DNA of 64,000 nt, from positions 26,844 to 90,843 of the forward strand of contig JAABTN010000011.1 in the NCBI GenBank assembly GCA_011389895.1, given 5' to 3'. Under the pieces are notes generated by a model, which was not told the DNA's origin, did no database searches, and saw only the letters and a program-made list of their open reading frames with translations. Shown here in pieces: positions 7,289-55,991 of this stretch; the stretch's first letter is position 1, and each line of letters opens with the position of its first letter. Source of the stretch: Maritimibacter sp. GTDB taxonomy: Bacteria > Pseudomonadota > Alphaproteobacteria > Rhodobacterales > Rhodobacteraceae. Both the position numbers and the translations under genes were made by a program.

Positions 7289-7360
7289 GGCGCGCCGGTT
7301 GCGATGGGGGTTACGCCGGGATACCAACGGGGAGCGCCGCATACAATCCCGCGAGGTAAC

Positions 7361-8047: not shown

Positions 8048-8099
8048 GGTGCCTTGAGGCTGACCGGACCCATCGGTAAGGTCGGGCCTGTTGGCTGCG

Positions 8100-14704: not shown

Positions 14705-14714
14705 CGCGATGAAG

Positions 14715-15200: not shown

Positions 15201-15441
15201 GATGAACGTCCTTCTCTTGCTGACTGCGCAGGTTGCACAGGTCTGGCGGGACCCCGACCCTATCATCCTGGCGCATCGTCGCAACGAAGTGCGAAATGCA
15301 GCCCCCGCATTCCGGGGATTTCCCGAGCGCGTGGTAGACGCGCCCGGGGGTGATGATCGACTGCGCATCCGCGGCGCGCATCCAGTCGATCGCGGCTTGA
15401 ATGTCGCGGTCCGTGATATGCTGGCAGTGACAGACGATCAT
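15175..15441 (-). CDS. bfd: Bacterioferritin-associated ferredoxin-like [2Fe-2S] protein
   Basis: An 88-residue protein with four cysteines in the Bfd arrangement: C-x-C at residues 4 and 6 (MIVCHC) and C-x2-C in ECGGC (about 45-48). Bfd reduces bacterioferritin to mobilise Fe2+. It is longer than the usual 60-70 residues because its C-terminal frame runs 26 bases into bfr. It lies 15 bases after the imelysin stop region in the same operon. Confidence 0.85.
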
Positions 15442-15456
15442 CTTCTTCGCTCCGGC

Positions 15457-16230
15457 TTACTGGAAAACGGCGTCGGGATTGTCGAGGCTGTCGGACCCCT
15501 CGAAGGCAATCTGACCAAGGCCCATCTTGGCGACGATGCGTTCGATCGTCGCGGTCTGGTCAATCAACCCGTCGATCGCGGCCATGATGATCGCTTCACC
15601 TTCCGCGTTGCCCGGTGCAAGCATCTGGTCATAGGCCATGCCACCTTCGGCGGTGTCCGAGAGGTCCGTCATGGCGACCATGGTCGAATCCTGCTTTGCC
15701 TTCATCTCGGCATCGAGATCGGCATCGGTGGCCGCGACGAGGTCAGAGTGCGACGCCCCCTCGACCGTGGAGCCGTCAACGCGGGTGTAGGACCCGAGAT
15801 AGACGTTCTGCACGCCCAGCCCATCGTTGTAATGCGAGCGGTGGGTGTTGTCGGAGAAGCAATCATGCTCTTCCTCCGGGTCGTTCAGCAGAAGACCAAG
15901 GCGCATGCGTTCACCGGCCTGTTCGCCGTAGGACAGGCTGCCCATCCCGGTCAGGATCGCGGCGATGCCGGCGTCTTCGTCTGACAGCACGGTTTCGCGC
16001 GCTTCGCCGGAGTCGCCCCAAGCCGCGCGCGCGGCGGCAAGCGTGTCTTCCGACGGGGACGCGATCAGGGCGTTGACCGCGTCGTTCAACGTCTGGGCGG
16101 TTGTCAGGCTGTCTTCGTAGCCGGCACGGGCAATGTCGGCATAAGTGGTGAGAACGTCGCCCTTCGTTGCGGCGAAGGCGGGAACGGCCGCGAGAACGAG
16201 CGCTGTTGCCGTGAGTGTCGTGTGTTTCAT
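15457..16230 (-). CDS. Imelysin family iron-regulated protein
   Basis: A 257-residue periplasmic or lipoprotein-like protein. It opens with a signal peptide (MKHTTLTATALVLAAVPAFA, about 1-20) followed by the imelysin/EfeO-M75-like fold. Recognisable are TTYADIARAGYEDSL and the region DEDAGIAAILTGMGSLSYGE (GxHxxE-type site degenerate here), and CFSDNTHRSHYND. The family is induced by low iron. The ATG at 16230 gives a proper signal peptide; the longer frame does not. First gene of imelysin-bfd-bfr-(di-haem), with a palindrome 50 bases upstream. Confidence 0.85.
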   Translation of the reverse strand: MKHTTLTATALVLAAVPAFAATKGDVLTTYADIARAGYEDSLTTAQTLNDAVNALIASPSEDTLAAARAAWGDSGEARETVLSDEDAGIAAILTGMGSLSYGEQAGERMRLGLLLNDPEEEHDCFSDNTHRSHYNDGLGVQNVYLGSYTRVDGSTVEGASHSDLVAATDADLDAEMKAKQDSTMVAMTDLSDTAEGGMAYDQMLAPGNAEGEAIIMAAIDGLIDQTATIERIVAKMGLGQIAFEGSDSLDNPDAVFQ

Positions 16231-16279
16231 AACTGTCCCTTGTCGATTGGGTTCACTGTGATGAAATATACTTGATAGA

Positions 16280-16297
16280 TTTACTCTGGAAAGTAAA
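16280..16297. promoter_or_regulatory. Candidate iron-response operator upstream of the imelysin operon
   Basis: Perfect 6-6-6 inverted repeat TTTACT-N6-AGTAAA, 50 bases upstream of the imelysin start in an AT-rich stretch. Position and symmetry suit an iron regulator of the Fur/Irr/RirA group, but the motif was not matched to a specific consensus. Confidence 0.45.
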
Positions 16298-16365
16298 ACC
16301 GACAAATTTAGTCAGCTTTAGACTTGTTCCAAACCGGTGTCCTTTGGCGGGCGTCCGCAAACGGA

Positions 16366-16390
16366 ATGAGCGGCCCCTGGGGCCGCTCAT
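16366..16390 (-). terminator. Hairpin downstream of the TRAP operon
   Basis: Perfect 10-bp stem ATGAGCGGCC / GGCCGCTCAT with a CCTGG loop, about 90 bases beyond the DctM stop on the minus strand. There is no clear T-run, so the terminator call is moderate. The gene-free stretch 16231-16481 holds the iron-type palindrome and this hairpin only. Confidence 0.5.
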
Positions 16391-16481
16391 GCATGGTTTC
16401 TCGATCTGGGGAGGGGCGTTGCCCCTCGCCGCGCGCGCGGGCGCGCGTCTCACACCAAGGTATTTGGAAATCGATGAAGGA

Positions 16482-17780
16482 TCACAGGAACCCCGGGAGC
16501 CAGAGCACCAGCGCCGGGAAGGCGATGACGATGGCGACCACCGCGATGTCGGAGAGAATGAAGGGGATCACGCCCCGGAACACCTGTACGACGCTAACAT
16601 ATTTGCTCGCCACGTTTTTTATCACGAAGACGTTCAGCCCGACCGGGGGTGTGATCATGCCGATCTCGAGCAGTTTCACCACCAGAACGCCGAACCAGAC
16701 GAGGTCGATGTGTTGGGCTTCGAGCACAGGGAGGAACACGGGGAGCGTGACCAGCATCGCCCCGAACGGCTCCATGAAGGTGCCAAGGGCGAGGTAGATC
16801 GCCACGATGATGAACATGAGGCCGACATAGCCGATCTCGGAGCTGGCCACGGCCTGCGAGATGAAGCTTTGCAGGCCCGAGAGGCCCAGGAAACGGGTGA
16901 ACATCGTGGCGGCGAAGCCGATGATCAGGAGCGAACCGGTGGTGGTCACGGTTTCGATCAGGGAGCGCGAGATTGCGGTCCATGTCAGCTTTCCCGTGGC
17001 CCCGGCGACGAGGAAAGTGCCGAGCGCCCCGATGGCGCCTGCTTCGGTTGCGGTGAACAGGCCGCTGAACAGCCCGCCGAACACGAGAATGATGAGCGCG
17101 AGCACCGGCAGGAGCGACAGGAACACCTTCGCCCCTTCGCCTTTGTCCACCTCGGCGCGGGGCGGGATGATGTCGGGGCGCAGAAGGCTTATGGTCAACA
17201 CGACGATGGTATAGGCGATGGCGGTCGCGATGCCGATGCTGATGCCGCCGAGGAACACTTTGGTCACCGATGTTTCGGCGATGATTCCGTAGATGATCAT
17301 CAGGATCGAGGGGGGGATCAGCGCCCCGATGGTGCCTCCCGCCGCGATCGCGCCGGAGGCGATCGAGGGGCGGTAGCCGGCCTTGACCATCTCGGGGATG
17401 GCGATGCGGCCCATGGCGGCGGCGGTTGCGATGGACGAGCCAGAGAGGGCGGCGAAGCCGGAACAGGCGAAGATCGAAGAGATTGCGAGACCCCCCGGCA
17501 ATCGGGCGAGGAGCACCTTGGCCGCATCGAACAGGCCCGCGGTCAGCCCGGTGTGAAAGGCGACGAAGCCCATCAGCAGGAACATGGGAACCGCGCTCAT
17601 GGTCCAGCTTGCGACGAAGCTGTAAGGCGTGTTCTCAAGGATCCCCATGGCGGGTTTGATGCCGATCATCGCCCAGATGCCGGAGAAGGACACGATGATC
17701 AGGGCCAGCGCGACGGGCAGGCGCATGATCAGCAGGATGCCAAGGGCGACGACACCCCAGATACCGATCTCGACGCTCAT
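16482..17780 (-). CDS. TRAP transporter large permease (DctM), aromatic cluster
   Basis: A 432-residue, about 12-helix membrane protein of the DctM family that carries substrate together with Na+. Family signatures include the N-terminal LGILLIMRLPVALAL, the SGSSIATAAAMG loop and the late TPPVGLNVFVIK. The start ATG overlaps the small-permease stop by four bases (ATGA). Operon order dctP-dctQ-dctM on the minus strand follows directly after the amidohydrolase gene, so the substrate is probably a hydroxycinnamate or other lignin-derived aromatic acid. Confidence 0.93.
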   Translation of the reverse strand: MSVEIGIWGVVALGILLIMRLPVALALIIVSFSGIWAMIGIKPAMGILENTPYSFVASWTMSAVPMFLLMGFVAFHTGLTAGLFDAAKVLLARLPGGLAISSIFACSGFAALSGSSIATAAAMGRIAIPEMVKAGYRPSIASGAIAAGGTIGALIPPSILMIIYGIIAETSVTKVFLGGISIGIATAIAYTIVVLTISLLRPDIIPPRAEVDKGEGAKVFLSLLPVLALIILVFGGLFSGLFTATEAGAIGALGTFLVAGATGKLTWTAISRSLIETVTTTGSLLIIGFAATMFTRFLGLSGLQSFISQAVASSEIGYVGLMFIIVAIYLALGTFMEPFGAMLVTLPVFLPVLEAQHIDLVWFGVLVVKLLEIGMITPPVGLNVFVIKNVASKYVSVVQVFRGVIPFILSDIAVVAIVIAFPALVLWLPGFL

Positions 17781-43527: not shown

Positions 43528-44634
43528 TCAGGGTTCCGGTGCGTCGGCGGCCTTCTGCAACGGGCGGCCCACGTCTTCGGGTCCGACCGAGACGGTTTTC
43601 ACGATGGCGTGGCAGCTCTGACCAACGGCGAGTGCCATGGCCTCGGCAGAGCGCCGGGTGATGCGGGCCGACAGACGGTCGCCGCCGACATCCAGCAGAA
43701 CCATCATCCCCGGCCCCTGTCCGGCGCGAATCTCGGTCACCGTGCCCTTGAGAATGTTGAGGGCGGAAAGCCCCTCGGGGCGCGCGCGCGACAAGATCAC
43801 GTCCTGCGCCGTGATGCGCAGCTGGATCATCGCGCCTTCGGGGGCGTCGATCCGGGGCAACCAGAGCGGTCCGGCAGCGGCGGAAAGCTCGCTCAGCCCA
43901 TCGGCATGGTGGCGGGCGACACGGGCCTTCAGCACCGACGCCGCGCCCCGGGCCCCCATTGCGCCAACGTCACCCAGCACCTCGCCCGGCGTGCCAACAG
44001 CGGCGACCTGACCGTCGCGCAAGGCAACAACGGTGGTGGCGAGGCGCGCGACCTCGGATGCGGAATGGCTGACATAGAGGATCGGCACGCTCACCTCGTC
44101 GCGCAACCGTTCGAAATAGGGCAGGATTTCAGCCTTTCGCGCGTCATCCAGCGCAGCCAGCGGCTCATCCGCGAGGATCAGGCGCGGCGCGGCGAGGAGC
44201 GCGCGGCCAATGGCGACACGCTGTTTCTCACCCCCCGACAGCGCGCCGGGGCGCCGGTTCAGAAGCGGCCCGATCCCCAGCATCTCGACCACGTGCGACA
44301 TATCCTCGCGCGGCGCGTGCCTTGGGGCGAACCAAGCGCCGTAGGCGAGGTTTTGTTTCACGGTCAGATGGGGAAACAGGCGGCCTTCCTGAAAGATATA
44401 GCCCAAACGGCGGTGATGCGGTTTCAACCGGATGCGCTGCGTGGTGTCCAAAAGCACCCAGTCATCGGTGGCGACGCGCCCCACATCAGGGGTCAGAAGC
44501 CCGGCAACGGCGTTCACCACGGTCGTCTTGCCCGACCCCGAACGCCCGAACAGCACCGTCACCCCGGGGGGCGCATTGAACTCCACGTCGAGCGTGAAGT
44601 CTTCGAAGGCATGGCGCAGTGAAACCTCAAGCAT
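43528..44634 (-). CDS. modC: Molybdate ABC transporter ATP-binding protein
   Basis: A 368-residue ATPase: Walker A FGRSGSGKTT (about 31-40), signature LSGGEKQRVAIGRAL (about 128-142), Walker B LILADEPLAALD, and a C-terminal TOBE domain (about 290-350) that senses molybdate. ATG 44634 overlaps the modB stop by one base. Last gene of modABC. Confidence 0.95.
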   Translation of the reverse strand: MLEVSLRHAFEDFTLDVEFNAPPGVTVLFGRSGSGKTTVVNAVAGLLTPDVGRVATDDWVLLDTTQRIRLKPHHRRLGYIFQEGRLFPHLTVKQNLAYGAWFAPRHAPREDMSHVVEMLGIGPLLNRRPGALSGGEKQRVAIGRALLAAPRLILADEPLAALDDARKAEILPYFERLRDEVSVPILYVSHSASEVARLATTVVALRDGQVAAVGTPGEVLGDVGAMGARGAASVLKARVARHHADGLSELSAAAGPLWLPRIDAPEGAMIQLRITAQDVILSRARPEGLSALNILKGTVTEIRAGQGPGMMVLLDVGGDRLSARITRRSAEAMALAVGQSCHAIVKTVSVGPEDVGRPLQKAADAPEP

Positions 44635-45332
44635 CACGTGCCCCCCACCCGGGCCGCGATGCGACGCGAAATCCACTCGGACACCGCCAAAGCCGCGGCC
44701 GCCAGCGCGATCGACAATGCAGCGAGCCGGGCCGCCCGCGCCTCACCATCCGGTGTTTCCAGCAGCAGGTCGATGGCCAGCGGGATTGTCTGGGTCTGGC
44801 CAGGGATGTTCGACACGAAGGTGATCGTTGCCCCAAATTCGCCCATACCCTTGGCGAAGGTCAGCATGGTTCCAGCAAGTATACCGGGCAGGATCAGGGG
44901 CAGCTTGACCGTTAGGAAGACCCACATGGACGAAGCGCCGAGCGTAGAGGCGGCCTGTTCCAGCTTCGGGTCCACGGCTTCGATCGACAGTTGCACTGCG
45001 CGCACCATGAAGGGAAAAGCCATCACACCGGCGGCCAGCGCCGCCCCGGTCCACCTGAAGGCGAAGGTGAAGCCCAGAGTGCTGTCCAGAAAGCCGCCCA
45101 CGGGCCCGCGCGTTCCGAAGGTCAGCAGCAACAGATACCCCGTGACCACCGGCGGCATGATGAGAGGAAGGTGGACGACAACGTTTAGCACTTCGCGCCC
45201 CGGAAACCTCCAGCGTGCCAGCGCGTTGGCGACAAAGACGCCCAAGGGCAGGCTGACAAGCGTTGCCCAGAACGCCACCTTGAGCGACAGGCGCACCGCC
45301 TCCCATTCTGTCGGGGTAAACCAGTCTGTCAT
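44634..45332 (-). CDS. modB: Molybdate ABC transporter permease
   Basis: A 232-residue permease with five membrane helices and the EAA loop EQAASTLGASSMWVFLTVKLP (about 139-159). The start ATG 45332 (MTDWFTPTEW) is four bases after the modA stop; a longer open frame reaches into modA and is rejected. Confidence 0.94.
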   Translation of the reverse strand: MTDWFTPTEWEAVRLSLKVAFWATLVSLPLGVFVANALARWRFPGREVLNVVVHLPLIMPPVVTGYLLLLTFGTRGPVGGFLDSTLGFTFAFRWTGAALAAGVMAFPFMVRAVQLSIEAVDPKLEQAASTLGASSMWVFLTVKLPLILPGILAGTMLTFAKGMGEFGATITFVSNIPGQTQTIPLAIDLLLETPDGEARAARLAALSIALAAAALAVSEWISRRIAARVGGT

Positions 45333-45336
45333 GCGG

Positions 45337-46107
45337 CTAGTTTTCTGCCATCCCGAAACCTTCGTTCTCAAAGGCCTGCCGCGCCTCGGGGCCACGCAGG
45401 AAGTCGAGGAAGGTTTGGATCAGCGGATTATCGCTCTCGGTCATTCCGGCGGCGGGGTAGACGATGGGGGGATGGGTGTCTGGCGGGAAGGTGGCGACCA
45501 CGGTCACGTCACCGTCGGCTGCCGCGTCGGTGGCGTAGACAATGCCAAGGGGCGCTTCGCCGGTCGCGACGAAGGCCAGCGCCGCGCGCACATTTCTGGC
45601 CTGCGCCACCTGCGGCGCGACGCTGTCCCACAACCCGAGGCTGGTGAGCGCCGCCTTGCCATAGATCCCCGCTGGCACGGCATCGACCAGCGCCATAGCC
45701 AGCCGCCCGTCGCCCAGAAGGCGGGCGAGGTCCATGTCCGGCGCGATCTCGATCGGTGCGTCATCCGCGTCGGCGGCGATCAGCACGATGGCATTGGTCA
45801 GAAGATCGAATCGCGTGCCGTCCGCGACCAGCCCGTCTTGTTCCAGCGTGTCCATCCAGCCGGGATTGGCGGAGATGAAGATATCCGCGGGCGCGCCCTG
45901 CTGGATCTGCCGGGCCAGTGCGGAGGACCCGGCGAGAGAGAGGGTCAGGTTGTGCCCCGTGGCATCCTCGAACCGCTCTTTCACGGTGGCCATGGCATTG
46001 CTCATGCTGGCGGCGGCGAAGATGGTGATGTCCCCGGCCTGGACGAGGGTTGGCGTCGCCAGGGTCAGGGCCGTTGCAGCAGCTTTGAAAATGACGGGCT
46101 TGGACAC
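45337..46107 (-). CDS. modA: Molybdate-binding periplasmic protein
   Basis: A 256-residue periplasmic protein. A signal peptide (about 1-23, ending LVQA) is followed by ITIFAAASM, the molybdate-contacting start of mature ModA. DIFISANPGWMD and GKAALTSLG are further landmarks. GTG 46107 (SKPVIFKAA) is chosen because it gives a clean signal peptide with GAGGGA upstream; an ATG 42 bases earlier overlaps a palindrome. Confidence 0.92.
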   Translation of the reverse strand: MSKPVIFKAAATALTLATPTLVQAGDITIFAAASMSNAMATVKERFEDATGHNLTLSLAGSSALARQIQQGAPADIFISANPGWMDTLEQDGLVADGTRFDLLTNAIVLIAADADDAPIEIAPDMDLARLLGDGRLAMALVDAVPAGIYGKAALTSLGLWDSVAPQVAQARNVRAALAFVATGEAPLGIVYATDAAADGDVTVVATFPPDTHPPIVYPAAGMTESDNPLIQTFLDFLRGPEARQAFENEGFGMAEN

Positions 46108-46133
46108 GGGCAGCAATCCCTCGCACTCCTGAT

Positions 46134-46149
46134 ATGTTTCGCAAAACAT
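46134..46149. promoter_or_regulatory. Palindrome upstream of modA
   Basis: ATGTTT-CGCA-AAACAT, a perfect 6-bp dyad 27 bases upstream of the modA start and 31 bases downstream of the modE stop. Candidate Mo-responsive operator for the adjacent ModE-like regulator, though not a match to the long E. coli ModE consensus I know. Confidence 0.4.
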
Positions 46150-46179
46150 GTCGCAAGCCTTGGGCTGCAAGGTCAAGCG

Positions 46180-46575
46180 TTATTTTTTGCCGGGAATATC
46201 CCTTATCAGCCCGCCCAATCGTGCAAGACGCGCCGCCCCTGCCGCCGCTGTCTCGTCTTCAAAGGCCCGGTATTCCGTCAGAACCTCGCGCCCAAGATCG
46301 GTGAGAACCGCCCCGCCGCCGCCCGGTCCGCCCCGGGTGCTGTCGACAAGAGGCGCGCGGAACATGGCGTTGAGCGTGCCGATCAATTCCCAAGCGCGCT
46401 TGTAGCTCATCCCCATCTCGCGCCCTGCGGCGGCAATGGACCCACAGCGGTCGATCCGTTCCAAAAGGTCTGCCTTGCCCGGTCCGATCATCTTGCCGTC
46501 ACCAAAGACGATGCGGATGCGAAGCAACGGGTCAGGTCCGGCCGGGTCGGAAGGGCGATGTGGTTTGGATTTCAT
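46180..46575 (-). CDS. ModE-like winged-helix regulator (DNA-binding domain only)
   Basis: A 131-residue protein equal to the N-terminal LysR-like winged helix of ModE. RIDRCGSIAAAGREMGMSYKRAWELI (about 46-71) is the typical helix-turn-helix with the wing GGGGAVLTDLG. The C-terminal molybdate-binding TOBE pair of full ModE is missing, as in many alphaproteobacterial ModE-like proteins. ATG 46575 is four bases from the 51-bp repeat, so its promoter lies within or beyond that repeat. It likely controls modABC. Confidence 0.82.
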   Translation of the reverse strand: MKSKPHRPSDPAGPDPLLRIRIVFGDGKMIGPGKADLLERIDRCGSIAAAGREMGMSYKRAWELIGTLNAMFRAPLVDSTRGGPGGGGAVLTDLGREVLTEYRAFEDETAAAGAARLARLGGLIRDIPGKK

Positions 46576-46578
46576 AAC

Positions 46579-46629
46579 GCGACGATGACCGGGTTTCCCG
46601 CCGCGGATCAAGCAAGGATTTGCGTGGGC
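46579..46629. repeat. 51-bp direct repeat, left copy
   Basis: 51 bases identical to 55998-56048, beginning GCGACGATGACC and ending TTTGCGTGGGC, in the same orientation 9,419 bases apart. This copy directly precedes the modE start codon. Flanks outside the 51 bases differ, so it is a bounded repeat and not part of a longer duplication. Confidence 0.95.
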
Positions 46630-46716
46630 GTGCAGGTCAGCCACATCAGCACCTTTGGCTCAGGGTTTAAAAACCCCGGCTTCAACCCCGCCCTCGGCCT
46701 CTCTGCCAGATCCGCG

Positions 46717-47898
46717 TCAGGGGCGTGGTATGGCGTGGAAGGATGCGCTGAGCGGTCCGTATTCCGGCCAGTTGGTCATCTCCAGCGGCCCGACCTGTTC
46801 CAACCGCTCGGTCTTTTGCGTCAGTTGCAGCAATGTCTCGCGCAGGAGCACACGGGCAAGCGGCGCGCCGGGGCACATATGCGGCCCGCGTCCAAAGGTC
46901 AAAAGGTCGCGTGCGGTCCGGTCCAGCCGGTAGCTGTCGGGTTCTTCGAACACCGCCGCATCCCGGTTGGCCGAGGTGAAGACGATGGCGACCGGATCAC
47001 CCTTGCTCACCGGACAGCCCCCGATCTCGGTATCCTCGCGCGCCGTGCGGGCAAAGCCGCGGTAGGGTGTGTACAGCCGCAGCAATTCCTCAAGCGCGTC
47101 GGGCACGAGCGCCGGGTTCGCGGTCAGTTCCGCGTGGTGTTCCGGGTGGCGGGCCAGATGTACCGCCATCGACCCGATGAACGTCGTCGGCGCGATGATG
47201 CCCACCAGCAGGAATTGACGCAGAGCCCCGAGGATCAGGTCATCGGCCAGTGGTTCGCCCGCAACCCGCACGGCCAGAAGGCTCGCCGTCGGGTCGGTTT
47301 CGGGATCGCGCGGGTTTGCGTGACGGTCCGCAATCAGGTCGGCGGCAATGTCATAAAGCGCGTCCGACTTGATGCGGAGCAGATCGAAATCCTGCCGCTG
47401 CAGCGCCATGTTGAATTCTGCCCCTACCTTGCGGATTTGCTCGGCCTTGTTCGGCGACAGGTTGAAAAACTCAGCAAGCAGGGCGATGGGCAGGAGGAAC
47501 GAGAAATCCTTGCAGATGTCGCCACCGCCCGTCTCGATCCATGGGTCGAGAAACTTCGCCACCATCGGCTTCAGCCGCGCGTCCCAGTCCGCTAACCGGG
47601 ACGGGGTCAGATGGCGCTGTATCGCGTTGCGGTAGGGTGTGTTGTGCGGCGGATCAAGATGAAGCGGCGGGCGGCGTTGCGTGGTTGCCACGCGCGGCAC
47701 CACGTTTTGCACCGTGGTCGTGAACATCTCCCAGTTTTCCAGAACCTCGCGCGCATCCGCGTGCCGGGTCACGGCCCAGAAACCGCCCATATCGTCGGAC
47801 CATGCAACGGGGCAATGCGCGCGAAGCTTGGCGAACAACGCGTGCGGGCTGTCGAAATCCTCGGTGTCGGGGACTTTGAAATCGGGGGTGTGGGTCAT
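46717..47898 (-). CDS. Cytochrome P450 (first of pair), atypical I helix
   Basis: A 393-residue soluble bacterial P450. The haem-thiolate loop is FGRGPHMCPG (about 332-341), and ExxR occurs in EELLR. In the I helix, where AG(H)(D/E)T is expected, the sequence is LLVGIIAPTTFIG: the acidic residue and the following threonine are replaced by Ala-Pro or shifted by one. That pair normally delivers protons for O2 activation, so the mechanism may be unusual. Its ATG overlaps the upstream P450 stop by four bases. No ferredoxin or reductase gene lies on the island. Confidence 0.9.
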   Translation of the reverse strand: MTHTPDFKVPDTEDFDSPHALFAKLRAHCPVAWSDDMGGFWAVTRHADAREVLENWEMFTTTVQNVVPRVATTQRRPPLHLDPPHNTPYRNAIQRHLTPSRLADWDARLKPMVAKFLDPWIETGGGDICKDFSFLLPIALLAEFFNLSPNKAEQIRKVGAEFNMALQRQDFDLLRIKSDALYDIAADLIADRHANPRDPETDPTASLLAVRVAGEPLADDLILGALRQFLLVGIIAPTTFIGSMAVHLARHPEHHAELTANPALVPDALEELLRLYTPYRGFARTAREDTEIGGCPVSKGDPVAIVFTSANRDAAVFEEPDSYRLDRTARDLLTFGRGPHMCPGAPLARVLLRETLLQLTQKTERLEQVGPLEMTNWPEYGPLSASFHAIPRP

Positions 47899-49100
47899 GG
47901 TGTGCCTCGCATGTCGAGTGTCAGGCTGTTGATCCCGAACTCGGTCCAGCGGCCCCATGTCGGGGTGCCCACGACCTTCAGTCCGGGCTGCGCGATCAAC
48001 GCATCAATCATCACGTCGAGCTGAAGTTTCGCCATCGCTTGCCCCATGCACATATGCGTGCCGTAGCCAAAGGTGATGTGGCGGTTCGGGTTTCGGGCCG
48101 GGTCAAAGGTTTCGGGGGCATCGAACACCGCCGGGTCGCGGTTGGCCGAGCCGTAATTCATGGCAACCGGCGTGTCCTTGGGTATAAACGTGCCGTTCAG
48201 CACCGTGTCGGTCGTCGCCACCCGCGCAAGGCTCTGGTTCGCCGGGTAGAAGCGCAAGATCTCGTCGCGAAACGTCGGTTTGACCGATGGATCGGCACGC
48301 AAAAGCGCCACATGCTCTGGATTGGTGGCAAGATGCCAGGCCAGCGAATTCATCAGGCAGCGCGACGCGATGTGACCGCCGACCAGCAGCAAACGCACCA
48401 TCCCGGCCAATTCGCGCTCTGTGAACGGCGCCCCCTTGAGCGGCTGGGCCAGAATGCTCGACACCATGTCGGTCTCGGGATCGCGCGGCTGTGCCATGCG
48501 GCTTTGGGCCAATCGCGTGGCAAAGGCATCGACGCCTTTGGACATCTGCCCGGCGGTCTTCATGTCCCGTTCCTGGATCGCGTGGACGTAGGTCGCAGAC
48601 AGTCTCCCGATCTCGAGCGACTCCTCGGTGTCGAACCCCACGATCAGACCCAGCGACCCTTGGCTCATCGGTTCCCCGATCTGGAGCGGGAAATCCACCT
48701 GTGCCGGGTCTTTGGCCTTGGCGTCCGCAAACAGCCGGTCGACCAGCGCGAAAAGTTGCGGCTCGAACGTGCGAATCTTGTTCAACTTGAAGGACGGGTT
48801 CATCGCCTTGCGATACCGTTCGCTCTCGGGCGGATCCTTTTGCAGGGGCAACCGGGGCAGACCCAGCTTTGGTGACGCCGGAACGATGGACAGCTTGGTC
48901 GCGGTGAAGGTCTCGTGGTCTTTCTCGACTGTCAGAATGTCTTCATACCGCATGACCGTGAAAAACCCGCCCCACTTGTCGCTCCAGGCGACCGGGTGCT
49001 TTTCACGCAAGTTGCGCCAGACCGCCGGGTAGGTGTCGATGGTCTCTGGATCATGCGGGTCCCAGACGGACCTCAGTTCATTAATCTGTTCGGCAGCCAT
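47895..49100 (-). CDS. Cytochrome P450 (second of pair), lacks acid-alcohol pair
   Basis: A 401-residue P450. The haem loop is FGYGTHMCMG (about 344-353) and ExxR occurs in DEILRF. The I-helix segment LLLVGGHIASRCLM has Ile-Ala where Asp/Glu-Thr is expected, so the canonical acid-alcohol pair is absent. ATG 49100 has GGAG nine bases upstream and lies inside the end of dctM (28-base overlap). The two P450s are only distantly similar, which suggests different roles, for example a catalytic and a product-specific step. Confidence 0.9.
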   Translation of the reverse strand: MAAEQINELRSVWDPHDPETIDTYPAVWRNLREKHPVAWSDKWGGFFTVMRYEDILTVEKDHETFTATKLSIVPASPKLGLPRLPLQKDPPESERYRKAMNPSFKLNKIRTFEPQLFALVDRLFADAKAKDPAQVDFPLQIGEPMSQGSLGLIVGFDTEESLEIGRLSATYVHAIQERDMKTAGQMSKGVDAFATRLAQSRMAQPRDPETDMVSSILAQPLKGAPFTERELAGMVRLLLVGGHIASRCLMNSLAWHLATNPEHVALLRADPSVKPTFRDEILRFYPANQSLARVATTDTVLNGTFIPKDTPVAMNYGSANRDPAVFDAPETFDPARNPNRHITFGYGTHMCMGQAMAKLQLDVMIDALIAQPGLKVVGTPTWGRWTEFGINSLTLDMRGTP

Positions 49101-50350
49101 AGGGTGATCTCCGGAACATAGGTGATAAGGATAAGAAAGCACGCCATGATCAGAACGAAGGGGATCATGCCGCGCATGGCCTCGGACATCGGCGCCTTCG
49201 CGATCGACGACAGAACGAACAGGTTCAGCCCGATGGGCGGCGTCAGGAAAGCGATTTCCATGTTGACGATCAGCACGATTCCGAAGTGCACCGGGTCGAT
49301 CCCGAGCGGCCCGAGAACCGGCAGGACGATCGGCGTCACGATGAGCATCACGGCAATTGCATCAAGGAACATACCAAGGATCAGCATCATGATGTTCAGC
49401 GCGAGCAGGAATTGCCAGGGCTTCAGATCCGCCTCGATGGCGAATTCAACCAGCTTGGTGGGCACGCCCGACCCCGTGATCCAATGCGCAAACAGCAACG
49501 CGAACATGACGATGAACGACACGCCCGAGGCCGCCTTCATGCCTTCGGCGGTCATCGAGAAGATGTCTCGGAGTCCCACCTCCCGATAGACAAAGACCGC
49601 GATCACCACGCTGGCAACCGCAGCGACGCCCGCGCTTTCTGTCACGGTGGTGTAGCCCGAGTAGATACCGACAAAGACGAACAGCGGGATCGCGACAGCC
49701 GGCAATGCGCGCAGGTTCTTCGAAATGAATTCCTGCCGCGTCGCGCGGTCGCCCGAAGCATAACCCTTGCGCCGGGAATAAAACATCACCCAGGTGCCCA
49801 GGAGCACCGCCTGGATCAGGCCGGGGATGACACCGGCGATGAACAGGCGCGGCACGCTTTCCTCCGAGATCAGGCCATAGAGGATCATCGACAACGACGG
49901 CGGGATCAGGATGCCCATGGTGCCCGACGCCCCGACCAGACCCAGCGCGAAGGGCCGGTCATAGTTGCGTGCAACCATGGCGGGGATCAGGAACGTTCCC
50001 ATCGCCATCGCGGTCACGACGGACGAGCCGGAAATCGCGGCGAACAGCGTCGTGGCAAGCACGGCGACCAGACCCAGCCCCCCGCGCAGGTGCCCCACCC
50101 ATGTTTCGGCCGCATCAATGATGATCCGCGCGATACCTCCTTTTTGCATGAAGGTCGCAGCAAGCACGAAGAAGGGCACCGCGAGAAAGGTGGGCGAGTT
50201 GAGGCCCGACACCGTATGCGCCGCGGCATCCATCAAGGGGCGGCCCTCGATGGCGATCATCACCATCGCCGTGACCCCGAGAGCGACGAAGATCGGCGCG
50301 CCCAAAGCCATCAGCACAAGCATCCCGAAAAGGCCGATAAATGCGTCCAT
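49073..50350 (-). CDS. TRAP large permease (DctM), island system
   Basis: A 425-residue DctM-family permease: VALGVTAMVMIAIEGRPLM near the start, SGSSVVTAMAMGTFL (about 92-106) and TPPIGLNLFVLSSIA (about 374-388). It starts three bases after the dctQ stop, and its 3' end overlaps the P450 start by 28 bases, placing transporter and oxygenases in one transcript. Confidence 0.92.
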   Translation of the reverse strand: MDAFIGLFGMLVLMALGAPIFVALGVTAMVMIAIEGRPLMDAAAHTVSGLNSPTFLAVPFFVLAATFMQKGGIARIIIDAAETWVGHLRGGLGLVAVLATTLFAAISGSSVVTAMAMGTFLIPAMVARNYDRPFALGLVGASGTMGILIPPSLSMILYGLISEESVPRLFIAGVIPGLIQAVLLGTWVMFYSRRKGYASGDRATRQEFISKNLRALPAVAIPLFVFVGIYSGYTTVTESAGVAAVASVVIAVFVYREVGLRDIFSMTAEGMKAASGVSFIVMFALLFAHWITGSGVPTKLVEFAIEADLKPWQFLLALNIMMLILGMFLDAIAVMLIVTPIVLPVLGPLGIDPVHFGIVLIVNMEIAFLTPPIGLNLFVLSSIAKAPMSEAMRGMIPFVLIMACFLILITYVPEITLWLPNRLMN

Positions 50351-50353
50351 GGA

Positions 50354-50869
50354 TCAGTCTTCCTTTGTCGGGATGGTAGAGACATGGCCGAACGGACGTT
50401 GTCCGTTCAGCATCATCAGCGTCACGCGCAAGAGGATCAGAGCCATACCCACGGGCAGCGGAAGAAATACCGCGAAACCCTGTGGCGTGCGCAGCGAGGA
50501 ACCAGAGCGTTCATCAAGCAGATTTGCGAATTCGTATGCCTGCCAGCCATACACCATCATCACGGCGACGAAGGCGACCGACAGGACCGACATTGCCCAC
50601 CCAAGAACCCGGCGTGCCCTCGGTCGAAGGGCCGCGATGAAAACCTCGGTATGCAGGTGGCGATCTTCCTGCACGATCGCAGCACCGGCCAGAACGGTGG
50701 CCCAAATGATGAAATAGATCGACACTTCCGTGGCCCAATCGACGGCATGGGCCGGCGCCACAATGCGCAGGGCGCCGCCTCCCAGAAAGATAAGGAGCGA
50801 GATCAGGAGCAAGACGCCGATCAAGACGGTCTCGACCCGAGACCATACGTTGAGGATACGGGGGATCAT
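50354..50869 (-). CDS. TRAP small permease (DctQ), island system
   Basis: A 171-residue four-helix membrane protein. AHAVDWATEVSIYFIIWATVLAGAAI (about 39-64) is the typical DctQ region. Downstream dctM begins after three bases; a hairpin lies between this gene and dctP. Confidence 0.88.
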   Translation of the reverse strand: MIPRILNVWSRVETVLIGVLLLISLLIFLGGGALRIVAPAHAVDWATEVSIYFIIWATVLAGAAIVQEDRHLHTEVFIAALRPRARRVLGWAMSVLSVAFVAVMMVYGWQAYEFANLLDERSGSSLRTPQGFAVFLPLPVGMALILLRVTLMMLNGQRPFGHVSTIPTKED

Positions 50870-50897
50870 GATGAACCTGTCTGGATAGATATTGGTG

Positions 50898-50923
50898 CTG
50901 CCCCGCGACGGAGCGCGGGACAG
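50898..50923 (-). terminator. Intra-operon hairpin between island dctP and dctQ
   Basis: CTGCCCCGCG / CGCGGGACAG, ten pairs with one mismatch and a 6-base loop. No strong T-run follows, so it is more likely a processing or attenuation element that raises the ratio of binding protein to permease. Confidence 0.55.
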
Positions 50924-50934
50924 CGCGTTGCGAT

Positions 50935-51948
50935 TTACTGGTTACCATCCAGCGCCTCGGTCACGCGGGCGATGAAATCGGCATCCATACCACCATCGGC
51001 GACGATCTGCTGCTGCAGGCCCAACAAGGCATCGCGTTGTTCGGCGACCACCTCCGGGTCGGCATCCAGAACCGTGACGCCATTGTCGGCCAAAGTTTCG
51101 CGCGCCTGTGCCATTTCGTCCCTCGCATACGCCGCGGCCCATTCGCCGACCTCGACCCAGGTATCGCGAATGATCGCCTGTTGTTCTTCGGTCAGCTCAT
51201 CCATGGTTCGCTGCGACACGACCGGCATGTAGAACCCCCAGCCCGCATTGTCGGCAAAGATGTTCTTGATCCCGGATTCCCACAGCTTGCCACCGATGAT
51301 GGTCAGCTCGGTCACACCGCCCATGCCGTCGATCTGCCCCTGCGACAACAGCAGCGGAATTTCGGACCGGCGCGCGGCCTGCGGGGCACTCCCCATCTCT
51401 TTCAGCACACCGACAACCACCGGCGATGGCGGGGTGGCAAGCTTTAGACCCGTCAGGTCATCGTAGCTCTCGACAACCGTGTCAGTGGTAAAGGCCGTGT
51501 GTTGCGGCGCGAACAGGAACGCAGGTCCCGGCAGGTGAATGCCCTTCTTGGCCATCATGTCGCCCAGCTCGTCACCAATCGGACCTGACAGGATTGCGTT
51601 TGCCTCTTCCACCGTGCGTCCGAAAAACACAGGCAGGACCGAGAACGACAGGTTCGGCTCGAATTGGCTCATCGTCACATTGGCCTGGATCGACATGTCC
51701 AACGCGCCCGAGGCCAGCGCCCGGATCGCATCGGCGGATTTGTATAGCTGTGCGGCCGGGAATACCTCGACGGTCATTTCCCCGCCGGACGCTTCCTCGA
51801 TCGCGTCGGCCCAGCGGTCTGCGGCAAGGTTGCGCACGTGTCCCGGTGGGGTTTCCACCGACAACCGCAATTCGGTCTCGGCCAAGACGGTGGACCCCGC
51901 CGTGGCCATGATGGCGCCAAGCACCGTGGTCTTGATGAACGTCTTCAT
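50935..51948 (-). CDS. TRAP substrate-binding protein (DctP), island system
   Basis: A 337-residue periplasmic binding protein with a signal peptide (about 1-23, ending TVLA). DctP landmarks are YDDLTGLKLATPPSP (about 161-175) and EIPLLLSQGQIDGMGG (about 194-209). Its ligand is unknown; the surrounding CoA-transferase, reductase-like and P450 genes suggest an organic acid that is then activated and oxidised. Confidence 0.9.
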   Translation of the reverse strand: MKTFIKTTVLGAIMATAGSTVLAETELRLSVETPPGHVRNLAADRWADAIEEASGGEMTVEVFPAAQLYKSADAIRALASGALDMSIQANVTMSQFEPNLSFSVLPVFFGRTVEEANAILSGPIGDELGDMMAKKGIHLPGPAFLFAPQHTAFTTDTVVESYDDLTGLKLATPPSPVVVGVLKEMGSAPQAARRSEIPLLLSQGQIDGMGGVTELTIIGGKLWESGIKNIFADNAGWGFYMPVVSQRTMDELTEEQQAIIRDTWVEVGEWAAAYARDEMAQARETLADNGVTVLDADPEVVAEQRDALLGLQQQIVADGGMDADFIARVTEALDGNQ

Positions 51949-51985
51949 GTGTCTCCTCCCTGAAGATGTGAATGGATGGGCCGGT

Positions 51986-53119
51986 TTACCCCCCGGTCCC
52001 TGTTATGGTTTCGTTGTTCTGCCCAAGATGTGGCGCGCCCCGGTCCGTGCCCGGCCCGCCACTGGCCATCCGAAACCCGGCGTTGAGAACCCGGTCGCCC
52101 TCGATATCCAGAAACAGATTGCGCTCGGAAAGATGTGGCATCCTGATCGTCTCAGACACTTCCATGACCCGTGCGGCGGACAACCCCGCCTCGCGAAACA
52201 ACCGTTCCCAAACCGTGGCATCGCGCGTCTCGAATGCCTTGGCCAGTTCCGCGCGCATCGCATCGGCATGGGCCAGCCGGTCGATTCGGGTCGCAAACCG
52301 CGGATCTTCCAGAAGCTGGCTCACGCCCAGCACCGACAGCATCTTTTCAACGTGATGATCCTCGACCGCGCCCACGGTTATTTCGCCCGACTGACAGGCA
52401 AACGTGTCGGCGGTCGGTGCGCGGCTGAACCCGCGATTGCCCGTGCGCTTATGTCCCTGCCCGGCCATGAGCAGCGGGTTGACCACCGAGGACAGCATCA
52501 CGAGCGTCGCATCCAGCATCGCGACATCCACGTTCTGGCTCTCGACCAGCCCGCGCTCCTTCTGGATAACGGCGGTCTGAATGGCAAAGGCCGCAAGCAG
52601 CCCCGCATAAGTGTCGACGATGGGGAAACCGATCCGCATCGCCGGATCGCCCTCGTTGCCTGAAAGCCGCATCAACCCCGACAGGCTCTGCACGATCTGG
52701 TCGATCGCGGCAACGTCGCGCATATCGCCGGTCTGGCCGAACCCCGACACCGAACAATAGATCACACCGGGGTTTAGCGCCTTGACCGCCTCGTATCCCA
52801 GCCCCAGCCGTTCCATCACACCGGGACGGAAATTCTCGACGACGATGTCAGCACCAGCGACCAGTTTGCGCGCCGCCGCCACCCCGTCCTCGGATTTCAG
52901 GTCCAGTGCGACGCTTTCCTTGCCGATGTTGATTCCGCGAAACGCGGGCGCCATGCCCCAGTCGTCGCGGTTCGGGGCGTAGTTGCGCAAGAGGTCGCCT
53001 GTCGGCGTCTCGACCTTGATGACCCGCGCGCCGTTCAGGGCGAGAAAATGAGTCGCAAGCGGTCCAGCCACGACATGACTGAAATCGACAACCGTATAGC
53101 CTTCAAGCGCACGCGCCAT
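51986..53119 (-). CDS. CaiB/BaiF family CoA-transferase
   Basis: A 377-residue class III CoA-transferase. The N-terminal DFSHVVAGPLATHFLALNGARVIKVE-type segment (about 12-37) and ENFRPGVMERLGLGYEAV (about 95-112) are diagnostic. The catalytic aspartate is expected near FPIVDTYAG (about 165-173). RBS GGAGGAG precedes ATG 53119. It moves CoA between organic acids without ATP and would activate the substrate imported by the TRAP system for the adjacent reductase-like pair. Confidence 0.9.
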   Translation of the reverse strand: MARALEGYTVVDFSHVVAGPLATHFLALNGARVIKVETPTGDLLRNYAPNRDDWGMAPAFRGINIGKESVALDLKSEDGVAAARKLVAGADIVVENFRPGVMERLGLGYEAVKALNPGVIYCSVSGFGQTGDMRDVAAIDQIVQSLSGLMRLSGNEGDPAMRIGFPIVDTYAGLLAAFAIQTAVIQKERGLVESQNVDVAMLDATLVMLSSVVNPLLMAGQGHKRTGNRGFSRAPTADTFACQSGEITVGAVEDHHVEKMLSVLGVSQLLEDPRFATRIDRLAHADAMRAELAKAFETRDATVWERLFREAGLSAARVMEVSETIRMPHLSERNLFLDIEGDRVLNAGFRMASGGPGTDRGAPHLGQNNETITGTGG

Positions 53120-53174
53120 TCTTGCTCCTCCTTAATATGTATCTTTGTGAACTATTTTTTGTCTGTCAATGACA

Positions 53175-54443
53175 TTATGTCGCAGGAGACACCCGGCGGA
53201 TCGCGTCGGCCACATCCGCCTTGGCCCGCGCCCCGTCCCACTTGCGCGCGTCGACCATGTCGGCGTGGATTTCGACCACCTCGACACCGGCCGCCGTCAG
53301 GTCTTCGACTATGAAATTCGTGCAATAGCCCGACGGTCGGTCCGCCTCGGGCACCAGCACGACGGCAAGATCGATACGGTAATCGCGCGCCTGTTTGACC
53401 AGCCACGCATTCGCCCAAGGCGCCTGATGGAGCTGTTCGTTCATCGTCACCACCCGCGCGGCGAGCGCACGCAGATAGTCGCCCTTGGTCCGGCGCACGT
53501 ATCCGTCGGCAGCGAACGGCAGATACATCGACCAGGCGAAGACCGCGCCGAACTCTTCCTCGAAGGCGGTGTAAAACTTGGTGTCGAACCACAGCCCTGC
53601 ACCGATCCACATCATGCGCACGCGTTCGTCTGCGACGACCGCCTGCTCCGTCGCGATCCGTTCGCCCACCGCGTCCCGGAACCGCGCAGCATGTCCCACG
53701 GCCCAGTCCGAGCCCCGGTGCCACTGCGGAATCATTACGTTCGGTATCTGCTCCCCGATCCTGACCGGCACCCGTTCGGCCCCGGCGATCAGCCGGTTCG
53801 CCTCCTCGAAGATCAGCTCCTGCTCCTCGATCCGCTCCATGTAGGCCCCGAAGCCGTCATGGTCGAACGCACGCCCCGTGATCTCCTCCACCTGCCCGAT
53901 CAGGTCTTCGATCTGGGCCTGCATCAGGTTCAGCCGCGCGGTGCCATAAAGCGCCTCCCAGTCGTCGCGCGCGCGCTCCCACCAGTTGTTCAGGTTCTCG
54001 GCAGGGGCCGGCGCGTGCAAAAGCGACAGCCTCGCCCCGGCCTGGTCCGCATACAGTTGAAACAACCGTTGCTGATCGTCCGACGACTGGCGCGCGCACA
54101 GGATCGCCGGGTCCGGCAACCCGCCCCACGGCTGGCGGTCAGGGTCTCCGTCCAACGCCGAAATCACGCCCATGGCCGAGTATTTCGCAAGGCTGTCGTG
54201 AAACCCCATCTCGGCCCCGCGATCGAGCGTATGGGTCGAAAGCTGCTTGGCCGCGATCACCGATGACCACCATTGGTTCACCACCACCGGCATATCCATC
54301 GCATGAAAAATCTCGTGCGGCGTGTCGGCATTGACGAAAGCGAACCGCGCGCCCGCCTCGATCTGCGACCTGAGCGCCCTGACCCAATCGCGCTGGTATC
54401 CCATCGCCTCGGCTGAAATGGCAAGCGGTTCGTAAGCCATCAT
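53175..54443 (-). CDS. 2-hydroxyacyl-CoA dehydratase / benzoyl-CoA reductase-like subunit A
   Basis: A 422-residue protein resembling HgdB/BcrB/BzdO-type subunits (PF06050 superfamily). Supporting stretches are NADTPHEIFHAMDMPVVVNQWW (about 37-58), LPDPAILCARQSSDDQQ and MIPQWHRGSDWA (about 270-281). Members carry cysteines that bind a [4Fe-4S] cluster and are oxygen-sensitive. Here only two cysteines exist (ILC and GYC), and a Cys-type position reads AKYSAM. GGGAGGG precedes ATG 54443, which overlaps the next subunit gene by four bases. Assignment is from remembered family patterns, not a search. Confidence 0.65.
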   Translation of the reverse strand: MMAYEPLAISAEAMGYQRDWVRALRSQIEAGARFAFVNADTPHEIFHAMDMPVVVNQWWSSVIAAKQLSTHTLDRGAEMGFHDSLAKYSAMGVISALDGDPDRQPWGGLPDPAILCARQSSDDQQRLFQLYADQAGARLSLLHAPAPAENLNNWWERARDDWEALYGTARLNLMQAQIEDLIGQVEEITGRAFDHDGFGAYMERIEEQELIFEEANRLIAGAERVPVRIGEQIPNVMIPQWHRGSDWAVGHAARFRDAVGERIATEQAVVADERVRMMWIGAGLWFDTKFYTAFEEEFGAVFAWSMYLPFAADGYVRRTKGDYLRALAARVVTMNEQLHQAPWANAWLVKQARDYRIDLAVVLVPEADRPSGYCTNFIVEDLTAAGVEVVEIHADMVDARKWDGARAKADVADAIRRVSPAT

Positions 54444-55384
54444 GCGCCCTCCCCGATCACGATATCGCCCGGTTCGGGCCAACGCGGCAGGAACCCGAGG
54501 TCCGTAAACCCGACGCCCAGCCTGGCACAGAGATCGCGCACCTCGGGCATGAGCCAGCCCCAAAGGTCGTCATGCGGGTCCACCTGCCAGACGACGCGGT
54601 CGACCCCGTGCTCAACAAGCGCCCCCTCGATGCCTGGTAAGTAGAGAGGCTCGGGCTGACGCGCGGCAAAGGGGTTGGCGGCCTGCGCACGAAGCGCGCT
54701 ATCGACCCCGGCCCCGCCCGCGGCACACGCCTGATCCAGCGCCTGTTGATCCAGCACCAGCAAACCGATGTCATCAAGCGCAGCATGAAGCACTGCGTTG
54801 CCCAATGGCCCGCCGAGCAGAGCAAGCCGTTCGCCCCCTGCGGGCGTCCTCGCCATCCAGGTCACGACACGCCCTTCCGCCAGCACGGCGCGCGTGGCAA
54901 AGGCGCCTGCCCCACTGATCCTTCCCGCCGATTGCGCGGCAAGCAGGTCGTCGAACACGGCCGCCGGGCCCTGAATTCCCGGCTCCGGTGCCCAGCCCAG
55001 TGCGCGCAATTCCTGCGTGAGCCGGTCAAGCTCGGACTTGTTGAACGCCTGCGCCGCGTCGTGGTCAGCGGGTATGATGTTGAGCATGATCGGCATAGGT
55101 GCCCGCTTCGGCATGACGCCCCGGCGACGAAGTTCGAAGGCATATTGGCACGCGATCATCGCACCGGGGCTTTCGCGCAGGAATATGATGGCAGTCATGT
55201 CGTCAAATTGGCCTGCCGCCAGACCACTCAGAACCGAAGCCGCGAAGGGATCCATGAATGGTTCGATATAGCGGTCGGCTGCGGTGTCACCTTCCGCAAG
55301 GTGAAGAGTGACATCGACCGGTCGCAGACCGACCGACGCGAACACGCCCAACGGCGCCCCGAAGCCGAATACACCTACCCGCAC
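54440..55384 (-). CDS. 2-hydroxyacyl-CoA dehydratase / benzoyl-CoA reductase-like subunit B
   Basis: A 314-residue partner protein with the related fold pattern GVFGFGAPLGVFASVG, YIEPFMDPFAASVLSG (about 38-53) and LRESPGAMIACQYAFELRR (about 68-86), and a late DPHDDLWGW. It is shorter than usual (about 380) and has three scattered cysteines. GTG 55384 is chosen because GGGAGGACATA lies directly before it. Overlap with subunit A by four bases implies equimolar expression. A function as enzyme is not established. Confidence 0.55.
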   Translation of the reverse strand: MRVGVFGFGAPLGVFASVGLRPVDVTLHLAEGDTAADRYIEPFMDPFAASVLSGLAAGQFDDMTAIIFLRESPGAMIACQYAFELRRRGVMPKRAPMPIMLNIIPADHDAAQAFNKSELDRLTQELRALGWAPEPGIQGPAAVFDDLLAAQSAGRISGAGAFATRAVLAEGRVVTWMARTPAGGERLALLGGPLGNAVLHAALDDIGLLVLDQQALDQACAAGGAGVDSALRAQAANPFAARQPEPLYLPGIEGALVEHGVDRVVWQVDPHDDLWGWLMPEVRDLCARLGVGFTDLGFLPRWPEPGDIVIGEGA

Positions 55385-55405
55385 TATGTCCTCCCTGACA
55401 CAATC

Positions 55406-55420
55406 GTTCACTAACTGAAC
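55406..55420. promoter_or_regulatory. Candidate MarR operator in the island divergent promoter
   Basis: GTTCA-CTAAC-TGAAC is a perfect 5-bp dyad, 22 bases upstream of the subunit B start and 74 bases upstream of the MarR gene. A second palindrome, TGCAATTGCA (55442-55451), stands nearer the MarR gene. Both lie in the divergent region 55385-55493. Confidence 0.5.
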
Positions 55421-55493
55421 TTTATGGCACGGTCAACGACTTGCAATTGCACACCGAATTCGGGAACCTGCGCTGTATGAAGAAGGAAGCGAC

Positions 55494-55991
55494 GTGAGCG
55501 AAATCAAGGAAAACGGCAAAAGCCGGATCATTCTCGGCCCGCTGGCGCAGGATCTGCCGTTCATGTTCCGCAACCTCCATTCGATGCTCCGCTCGATCGG
55601 TGCGTCAATCCGGGGGCCGCTAGACCTCGAATCCGGGTCTATCGGCATTCTGTGCCTGATCTGGGTCAATCCCGGCATCTCGCAAAACGATCTGGCCGAA
55701 AACCTCGCGATGAAGAAATCGGCCATCGCCAAGTTGGTGAAATCGCTCGAAGCACAGGGTCTGATCGACCGCGAACGCGTGTCCGGCGACCGTCGTATGA
55801 ACGCGATCACTCTGACCTCGGACGGGCACAAGCTGGTCGCCTCGATCCGCGAACTGTCCGTGCCTCTGAACGAGGCGGTGATGGTCGGTATCTCGCAAGA
55901 CGAAATCGAGGTTTTTTTCCGCGTCCTCGAAAAACTCCACGCCTCGCTCGCCGCGCGCGTGTCGGTCAGCGCATCCGTGCAGAACGATTGA
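55494..55991 (+). CDS. MarR family regulator of the island
   Basis: A 165-residue winged-helix regulator: ISQNDLAENLAMKKSAIAKLVKSLEAQGLIDRERV-type HTH (about 63-97) and wing GDRRMNAITLTSDG. GTG 55494 has AGAAGGAAG upstream. It is divergent from the reductase-like/CaiB/TRAP/P450 transcript and is its probable local repressor, responding to a substrate or CoA intermediate. Confidence 0.86.
   Translation: MSEIKENGKSRIILGPLAQDLPFMFRNLHSMLRSIGASIRGPLDLESGSIGILCLIWVNPGISQNDLAENLAMKKSAIAKLVKSLEAQGLIDRERVSGDRRMNAITLTSDGHKLVASIRELSVPLNEAVMVGISQDEIEVFFRVLEKLHASLAARVSVSASVQND

Follow-up and report, generated by a model that had tools for sequence, protein, structure and literature searches.

A conserved gene cassette joins TRAP uptake, a CoA-transferase and two P450s to an HGD-D-fold protein pair without cluster cysteines

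Introduction

The HGD-D protein family is the textbook home of radical chemistry, which needs [4Fe-4S] clusters and an ATP-driven activase and hence belongs to anaerobic life. A 64,000-nucleotide stretch of Maritimibacter sp. DNA (contig JAABTN010000011.1, positions 26,844 to 90,843; hereafter the window) places two proteins of this fold beside two cytochromes P450. Eight chained genes on the minus strand, running from 55384 to 46717, encode a small and a large HGD-D-fold subunit (HgdS and HgdL, together HgdSL), a CaiB-type coenzyme A (CoA) transferase, the adjacent DctP, DctQ and DctM proteins that make up a complete tripartite ATP-independent periplasmic (TRAP) transporter gene set, and the P450s, P450a and P450b. 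A MarR-family gene is divergent, on the plus strand. What might a pair of this family do next to P450s?

Our answer is a tentative one. We favor a catabolic cassette for a probably methoxylated aromatic acid, in which HgdSL would act as a non-radical acyl-CoA enzyme and the two P450s would oxidize or demethylate. The starting point is the fold and active site of HgdSL.

Results

HgdSL has a known predicted fold without the cluster cysteines

The predicted HgdS model has a mean predicted local distance difference test score (pLDDT) of 91.7, and Foldseek matches it to HadC and BzdN structures. Scored by query, HgdL superposes on BzdO with a template modeling (TM) score of 0.81 and HgdS on BzdN with 0.74, at 16–17% identity. 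By sequence, the best Protein Data Bank (PDB) match is MbdO, at 50 bits. HgdS and HgdL are therefore predicted, from these models, to be two different HGD-D-fold subunits of a heterodimer.

PMC11574389 gives three cysteine ligands for the cluster of each subunit in this enzyme family, makes cluster reduction dependent on an ATP-driven activase, and names the weakly acidic beta proton as the reason radical chemistry is needed. In our alignments, the canonical [4Fe-4S] cysteine positions fall on A85, S119/S120 and A366/D367 of HgdL and on D45, S72 and D272 of HgdS. All three cluster cysteines are absent from both subunits in the window's branch. The HgdS ligand columns are three chosen by inference among six all-cysteine columns of canonical small subunits, and the HgdS residue count leaves out loci with a short or uncalled HgdS. 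The HgdL cysteine count leaves out L040 and L045, and L041 is counted apart. Further out in the family, the HgdL of locus L089 retains all three cysteines and 13 sphingomonad-order rows retain two.

An activase was sought by tblastn with two queries. None was found at the 44 named loci or at 20 further ones (L089–L091, L127–L143), and the same search does find activases at canonical loci. In the window's own genome, which is 92% complete, the best PF01869 match reached 26.3 bits, under the cut-off of 31.5. At genome level, each of the four canonical genomes carries two activases side by side. Among 14 other family genomes, three (G014, G175 and G595) have an activase over the cut-off, which is unlinked, and the remaining 11 have none. 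To the extent that sequence can decide, the known radical mechanism is ruled out for the window's branch on two counts: the missing cluster cysteines and an activase that the searches did not find.

On the same two counts, the earlier note's description of a reductase-like pair is not supported, and neither is an ordinary HgdB-type step. Since two defining features of the family were looked for and not found, we call HgdSL neither a dehydratase nor a reductase. Source annotations that name these proteins 'benzoyl-CoA reductase subunit' or '2-hydroxyacyl-CoA dehydratase' are misleading. Class I benzoyl-CoA reductase pairs (BzdNO, MbdON, BcrBC) have the fold of both subunits in common with HgdSL, but their ligand cysteines and activator subunits were not found for it. 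HgdSL also differs from the double-cubane cluster protein DCCP, having no cysteine at the canonical ligand columns and no activase-type partner gene that we could find. The FldABC and HadABC clusters hold a CoA-transferase, a two-subunit dehydratase and an activase. Here the CoA-transferase and the subunit pair are present, whereas cluster cysteines are missing from both subunits, an activase was not found, and P450s and TRAP uptake are added.

This partial likeness raises the alternative that the pair still performs a classical FldABC/HadABC-like reaction, with the cluster held by other ligands and the activase encoded elsewhere in the genome. The matching layout of CoA-transferase and two-subunit dehydratase argues for it, as do the cysteines kept by the HgdL of L089 and the sphingomonad-order rows. 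Ser or Asp can ligate Fe-S clusters, if rarely, according to PMC11574389. We nevertheless consider this reaction improbable, given that neither subunit of the window's branch has a cysteine at the three positions, that the own-genome activase match is under the cut-off, that the other family genomes have no activase over the cut-off or an unlinked one, and that P450s imply use with oxygen.

The gene order is conserved and the P450s track HgdL

An HgdL profile search of the named genomes gave 44 loci, and gene order was read by tblastn. The full eight-gene order, called type A, occurs in 10 of them (L002–L007, L033–L035 and L042), in genera that include Maritimibacter, Mesobacterium, Ahrensia, Pararhodobacter and others. 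By tblastn, nine of the 10 have the divergent MarR gene, the exception being L003. In the clustered gene table, the window-type TRAP transporter is present in 12 of the 44 loci and P450a and P450b in the same 12, two of which (L028 and L030) hold the TRAP/P450 module beside a type B layout. In type B, CaiB and MarR are divergent from HgdS-HgdL; after this pair come further CaiB genes, usually three, and a different TRAP transporter, which 27 of the 44 loci have. Type B loci with a P450b homolog are L018, L020, L021, L024, L025 and L028, and 17 of the 44 loci overall have P450b. The cassette forms a single branch of a larger family whose members may or may not have P450s. In an HgdL tree of 68 rows, the 11 type A rows (10 loci and the window) form one clade with support of 100/99, and beside it stand 31 related rows from type B, hybrid and truncated loci (99/94).

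Among 371 genomes of the same order, 12 matched the HgdL profile and 11 are real members, G764 (23 bits) having been dropped as a non-member. P450b orthologs (E up to 1e-90) occur in five of the 371, namely five of the 11 genomes with HgdL and none of the 360 without it (p = 8e-9; 2.7e-7 excluding the window's own genome). In all five, P450b lies on the HgdL contig and within 12 kb. The cases are not wholly independent, since two of the five come from a single genus. HgdL itself is rare, with four clear members among 385 genomes of the class, and is the sole PF06050 match in the window's own genome.

The earlier note had listed these genes as a chain of overlaps and short gaps under one MarR, a description that gene calls, Pfam and, for HgdS, the predicted model bear out. 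It had also held that a neighborhood conserved nowhere would count against its proposal, and had suggested a search for co-occurrence; the gene order and the distribution of P450b given above show conservation. TRAP uptake, a CoA-transferase, an HgdB/BcrB-like pair and twin P450s do form a conserved cassette. A literature search, judged by titles and abstract starts and with most subscription journals outside its reach, returned no description of it. Within the searched literature the cassette is apparently new, while the fold of HgdSL is already known.

Both P450s keep the haem site and lack the acid-alcohol pair

The haem-ligating cysteine and the ExxR motif are kept in all 13 P450a and all 18 P450b orthologs aligned. 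The I-helix acid-alcohol pair is absent from every aligned ortholog of both. At this position P450a reads GGH(I/V)(A/V)(S/P)R (13/13) and P450b reads GIIAPTT (18/18), and the nearest solved relative, CYP125MRCA, has GNETTRN. Some genuine P450 monooxygenases also lack the pair. The earlier view of twin P450s thus stands in that both genes are present with intact haem sites, and falls short in that neither protein is a standard P450.

CYP125MRCA is the best PDB sequence match of both proteins (166 and 135 bits), which are 33% identical to each other. They differ from the CYP125/CYP142-like bacterial P450s that they most resemble in the absent acid-alcohol pair, in having no redox partner in the cassette, and in their overlapping genes. 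All 10 loci measured, the window among them, show the 4 bp overlap of P450a and P450b; L004 gave no gene distances. Outside the cassette, the window's own genome has three P450 genes (six matches, of which two are pieces of one).

A palindrome is the likely MarR operator

The palindrome GTTCA-N5-TGAAC precedes HgdS in 22 of 43 loci, window included. The strict form was not found before HgdS in the remaining 21, and L041 and L045 are left out of this count. Its arms are invariant in six of six aligned type A loci. Base composition predicts about one such site in the 910 kb searched; 56 were found, all in or at the edge of cluster gaps, 24 of them before HgdS. Most of the 32 others stand ahead of CaiB or in the gap that separates HgdL from the CaiB after it, and some lie before the P450-linked DctP of L028 and L030 and beside the ABC importer of L025. 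The palindrome was found by a dedicated pattern script; a general inverted-repeat search of the MarR-HgdS gap returned none. A looser pattern gave seven sites in the window's own genome versus one for a reversed control, two of the seven being strict. The second strict site (C25:1219), near Oxidored_molyb and Ferric_reduct genes and with no cassette gene in 9 kb, was taken as chance.

GTTCA-N5-TGAAC is likely the MarR operator, judging from these distributions. MarR would control the cassette through it, and the effector would be the acid or its CoA ester. With the palindrome conserved, the inducer and through it the substrate can be tested directly.

Could the neighborhood be accidental, or its genes decaying? 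The missing cluster cysteines and P450 acid-alcohol pairs would fit decay. Yet all named genes of the cassette are present with open frames, different genera share the order, the altered motifs do not vary, and the palindrome is shared in cluster gaps. This explanation is scarcely credible and was rejected as contradicted by conservation.

CaiB and the wider family

All 11 type A copies of CaiB, the window's among them, retain Asp169, which we take to be the catalytic aspartate of family III CoA-transferases. CaiB resembles the formyl-CoA/oxalate CoA-transferases (YfdE, FRC) in this conserved residue and in having YfdE as its best PDB match, at 213 bits. It departs from them in falling under the cut-off of all seven NCBIfam models matched. 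At loci with three tandem CaiB genes (e.g., L009:12480-13574), the middle copy has Tyr or Phe for the catalytic Asp in 26 of 26 and, on this substitution, is likely the inactive half of a heterodimer. BbsEF is a two-subunit CoA-transferase of this kind, with one Asp-less half.

A further arrangement is seen in sphingomonads. The HgdL of genome G325 is identical to that of an Erythrobacter metagenome-assembled genome and has relatives in Novosphingobium, Sphingomonas and similar genera. Seventeen loci were read from the order of G325, the sphingomonad order. In 12 of these and in L090 the genes run TonB-receptor-like, CapA-like, DctQ, DctM, HgdS, double CaiB, HgdL and DctP, followed by CaiB and, mostly, hydrolase-like genes. 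Each of 13 long frames gave two profile matches, which bears out the double CaiB. The HgdL frame of L091, L139 and L140 spans ~790 residues, with an HgdS profile match in its N-terminal part (E 1e-15, 1e-9 and 3e-19). A long frame in L141 was considered as an HgdS-HgdL fusion and not counted, its N-terminal part having no HgdS profile match.

These arrangements bear on whether HgdSL is an enzyme by itself. It might instead be a CoA-thioester-binding scaffold, or a partner of CaiB in a CoA-transfer complex. HgdS and HgdL flank the double CaiB in the sphingomonad-order loci, and the Asp-less middle copy at the triple-CaiB loci recalls BbsEF. Two observations make a scaffold rather unlikely: the charged and aromatic residues of HgdL show strong conservation, in runs such as PQWHRGS and WIGAGLWFDT (23 sequences of A1), a pattern closer to an active site than to a scaffold, and the window form has a single CaiB with its Asp present.

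CapA-like genes (PF09587) stand by HgdSL in distant lineages (L024:3320-4438 and L090:3548-4660; also type B loci L013, L029 and L036), and their products seem to be part of the wider system. At L143, short frames that by eye look like transposases of one family flank an HgdSL relative, and the pair may be mobile between genomes.

A proposed pathway and its likely substrate

How would the parts work together? In the pathway that we tentatively favor, uptake of a probably methoxylated aromatic acid would fall to the TRAP transporter, and CaiB would convert the acid to a CoA thioester. HgdSL would then perform a likely redox-neutral step on this thioester, as a non-radical acyl-CoA lyase or dehydratase and not as a reductase. 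Its chemistry would be an acid-base or metal-assisted elimination, hydration or isomerization, carried out through HgdS carboxylates in the former cysteine places. P450a and P450b would oxidize or demethylate the substrate, and the acid is predicted to be broken down in the presence of oxygen.

We infer these reactions and the substrate class, an aromatic acid being the best of several readings, for which neighboring genes offer clues. The HgdL relative at L089 is accompanied by a p-hydroxycinnamoyl-CoA hydratase/lyase (465 bits, cut-off 276) and a VanA_C Rieske protein, and the one at L135 also by a VanA_C Rieske protein. L090 has a 4-hydroxybenzoate 3-monooxygenase (613 bits, cut-off 539) with a clustered homolog in L128, and L142 a lignostilbene-dioxygenase-like gene (604 bits, under the cut-off of 800). 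Nearer to the window, a FAD_binding_3 hydroxylase directly follows P450b in L033, and the same gene cluster is present in L034 and L035. At L167:3750-7407, P450b is followed on the same strand by a class III alcohol dehydrogenase and fghA (S-formylglutathione hydrolase), both over cut-off, a pair that hints at demethylation.

Two observations stand apart from these clues. At L142, a glycyl-radical enzyme gene (14189-16582; PF02901, PF01228) and the lignostilbene-dioxygenase-like gene (6551-8074) lie within 7 kb of the HgdL relative. The PDB matches of the window and L090 DctP proteins are many solute-binding proteins with no ligands named, a literature search by entry codes returned nothing, and no claim on the substrate was drawn from them; 4nap/4pgn/4pgp, 5im2 and 4p56 presumably contain aromatic acids.

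Several points weigh against this pathway. For HgdSL, the cysteine correspondence rests on low identity, and the HgdL positions shift by one to two residues between aligners. The acidic positions of HgdS also vary: type A rows have Ser or Gly at position 72, and sphingomonad-order rows with a separate HgdS gene lack Asp at position 45. For the P450s, a Pfam scan found no ferredoxin partner within the cassette, and six of the 11 HgdL genomes lack P450b. For the substrate, the aromatic flanking genes are a minority (L089, L090, L128, L135 and L142 of 20; L033–L035 of 10 type A loci), aromatic-pathway genes are common in sphingomonads, and the formaldehyde pair of fghA and class III alcohol dehydrogenase occurs in L167 only. 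The nearest solved relative of DctP, 4p47, is a distant one at 91 bits. An SBP_bac_5-type ABC importer, whole or in part, is present at the P450b-bearing loci L021, L024, L025 and L167, and L024 and L167 also have a CapA-like and an MmgE/PrpD protein, neighbors with which the substrate could be non-aromatic.

Such a substrate would be an acid resembling a peptide, an amino acid or a betaine, and the P450s would remove N- or S-bound methyl groups. In favor, P450b or CaiB adjoins varying sets of genes in L013, L021, L024, L025, L029 and L036 (L167 is the same region as L036), drawn from ABC importer parts, of SBP_bac_5 type wherever tested, and GntR-type, CapA-like or MmgE/PrpD genes. The FAD_binding_3 hydroxylases after P450b in L033–L035 and the aromatic pathway genes by deep relatives point the other way, and we regard a non-aromatic substrate as unlikely.

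The catabolic pathway that we favor would also carry an evolutionary proposal, which we put forward with more reserve. The benzoyl-CoA reductase/2-hydroxyacyl-CoA dehydratase scaffold may have been rebuilt as an oxygen-tolerant acyl-CoA enzyme independent of ATP and Fe-S clusters, serving aerobic aromatic catabolism beside coupled, unusual P450s. The HgdS cluster site would now be a carboxylate site, perhaps metal-binding, and relatives with two or three HgdL cysteines would be living intermediates. If true, an HgdSL branch with no cluster cysteines or activase found, paired with P450s, would show how the scaffold is converted to other chemistry. It would also bring to light an alphaproteobacterial catabolic route, fed by TRAP uptake, with key proteins that now carry misleading names.

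Gene layout and starts in the window

Features of the cassette are collected in Table 1. All Pfam matches of cassette proteins are over cut-off, HgdS excepted, which alone has no Pfam match. From HgdS to P450b, the spacing between successive coding ends is -4, +55, +37, +65, +3, -28 and -4 bp, and with gaps this short a single transcript for the eight minus-strand genes is likely. A sigma-70 promoter scan gave 0 sites versus 2.4 expected in shuffles.

The HgdS start is most likely the GTG at 55384, not 55411, because the ribosome-binding site and start are kept in six of six aligned loci. HgdL starts at 54443 or 54440 (two ATGs). Codon usage, by which gene frames in GC-rich loci were picked, places the P450a start near 49100 and the P450b start at 47898.

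Table 1. Features of the cassette, in window coordinates
Feature	Position	Strand	Evidence or remark
MarR-family regulator, divergent	55494..55991	+	PF01047 45 bits, PF12802 43 bits
Putative MarR operator GTTCA-N5-TGAAC	55406..55420		21 bp upstream of HgdS start
HgdS, small subunit, HadC/BzdN fold (predicted)	54440..55384	-	predicted model and Foldseek; alignments
HgdL, large subunit, HadB/BzdO fold (predicted)	53175..54440	-	PF06050 (HGD-D) 112 bits; predicted fold
CaiB, family III CoA-transferase with Asp169	51986..53119	-	PF02515 (CoA_transf_3) 351 bits
DctP, TRAP solute-binding protein	50935..51948	-	PF03480 139 bits
DctQ, TRAP small permease	50354..50869	-	PF04290 67 bits
DctM, TRAP large permease	49073..50350	-	PF06808 361 bits
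P450a	47895..49100	-	PF00067 93 bits; haem Cys and ExxR kept
P450b	46717..47898	-	PF00067 58 bits; 4 bp overlap with P450a

The genes directly downstream of P450b (window 43528-46644) are outside the conserved cassette and cluster with none from the fetched loci. One is of ModE type (87 bits, under the cut-off of 98.5), and molybdate-transporter-like ones, judged by eye, resemble ModA, ModB and ModC.

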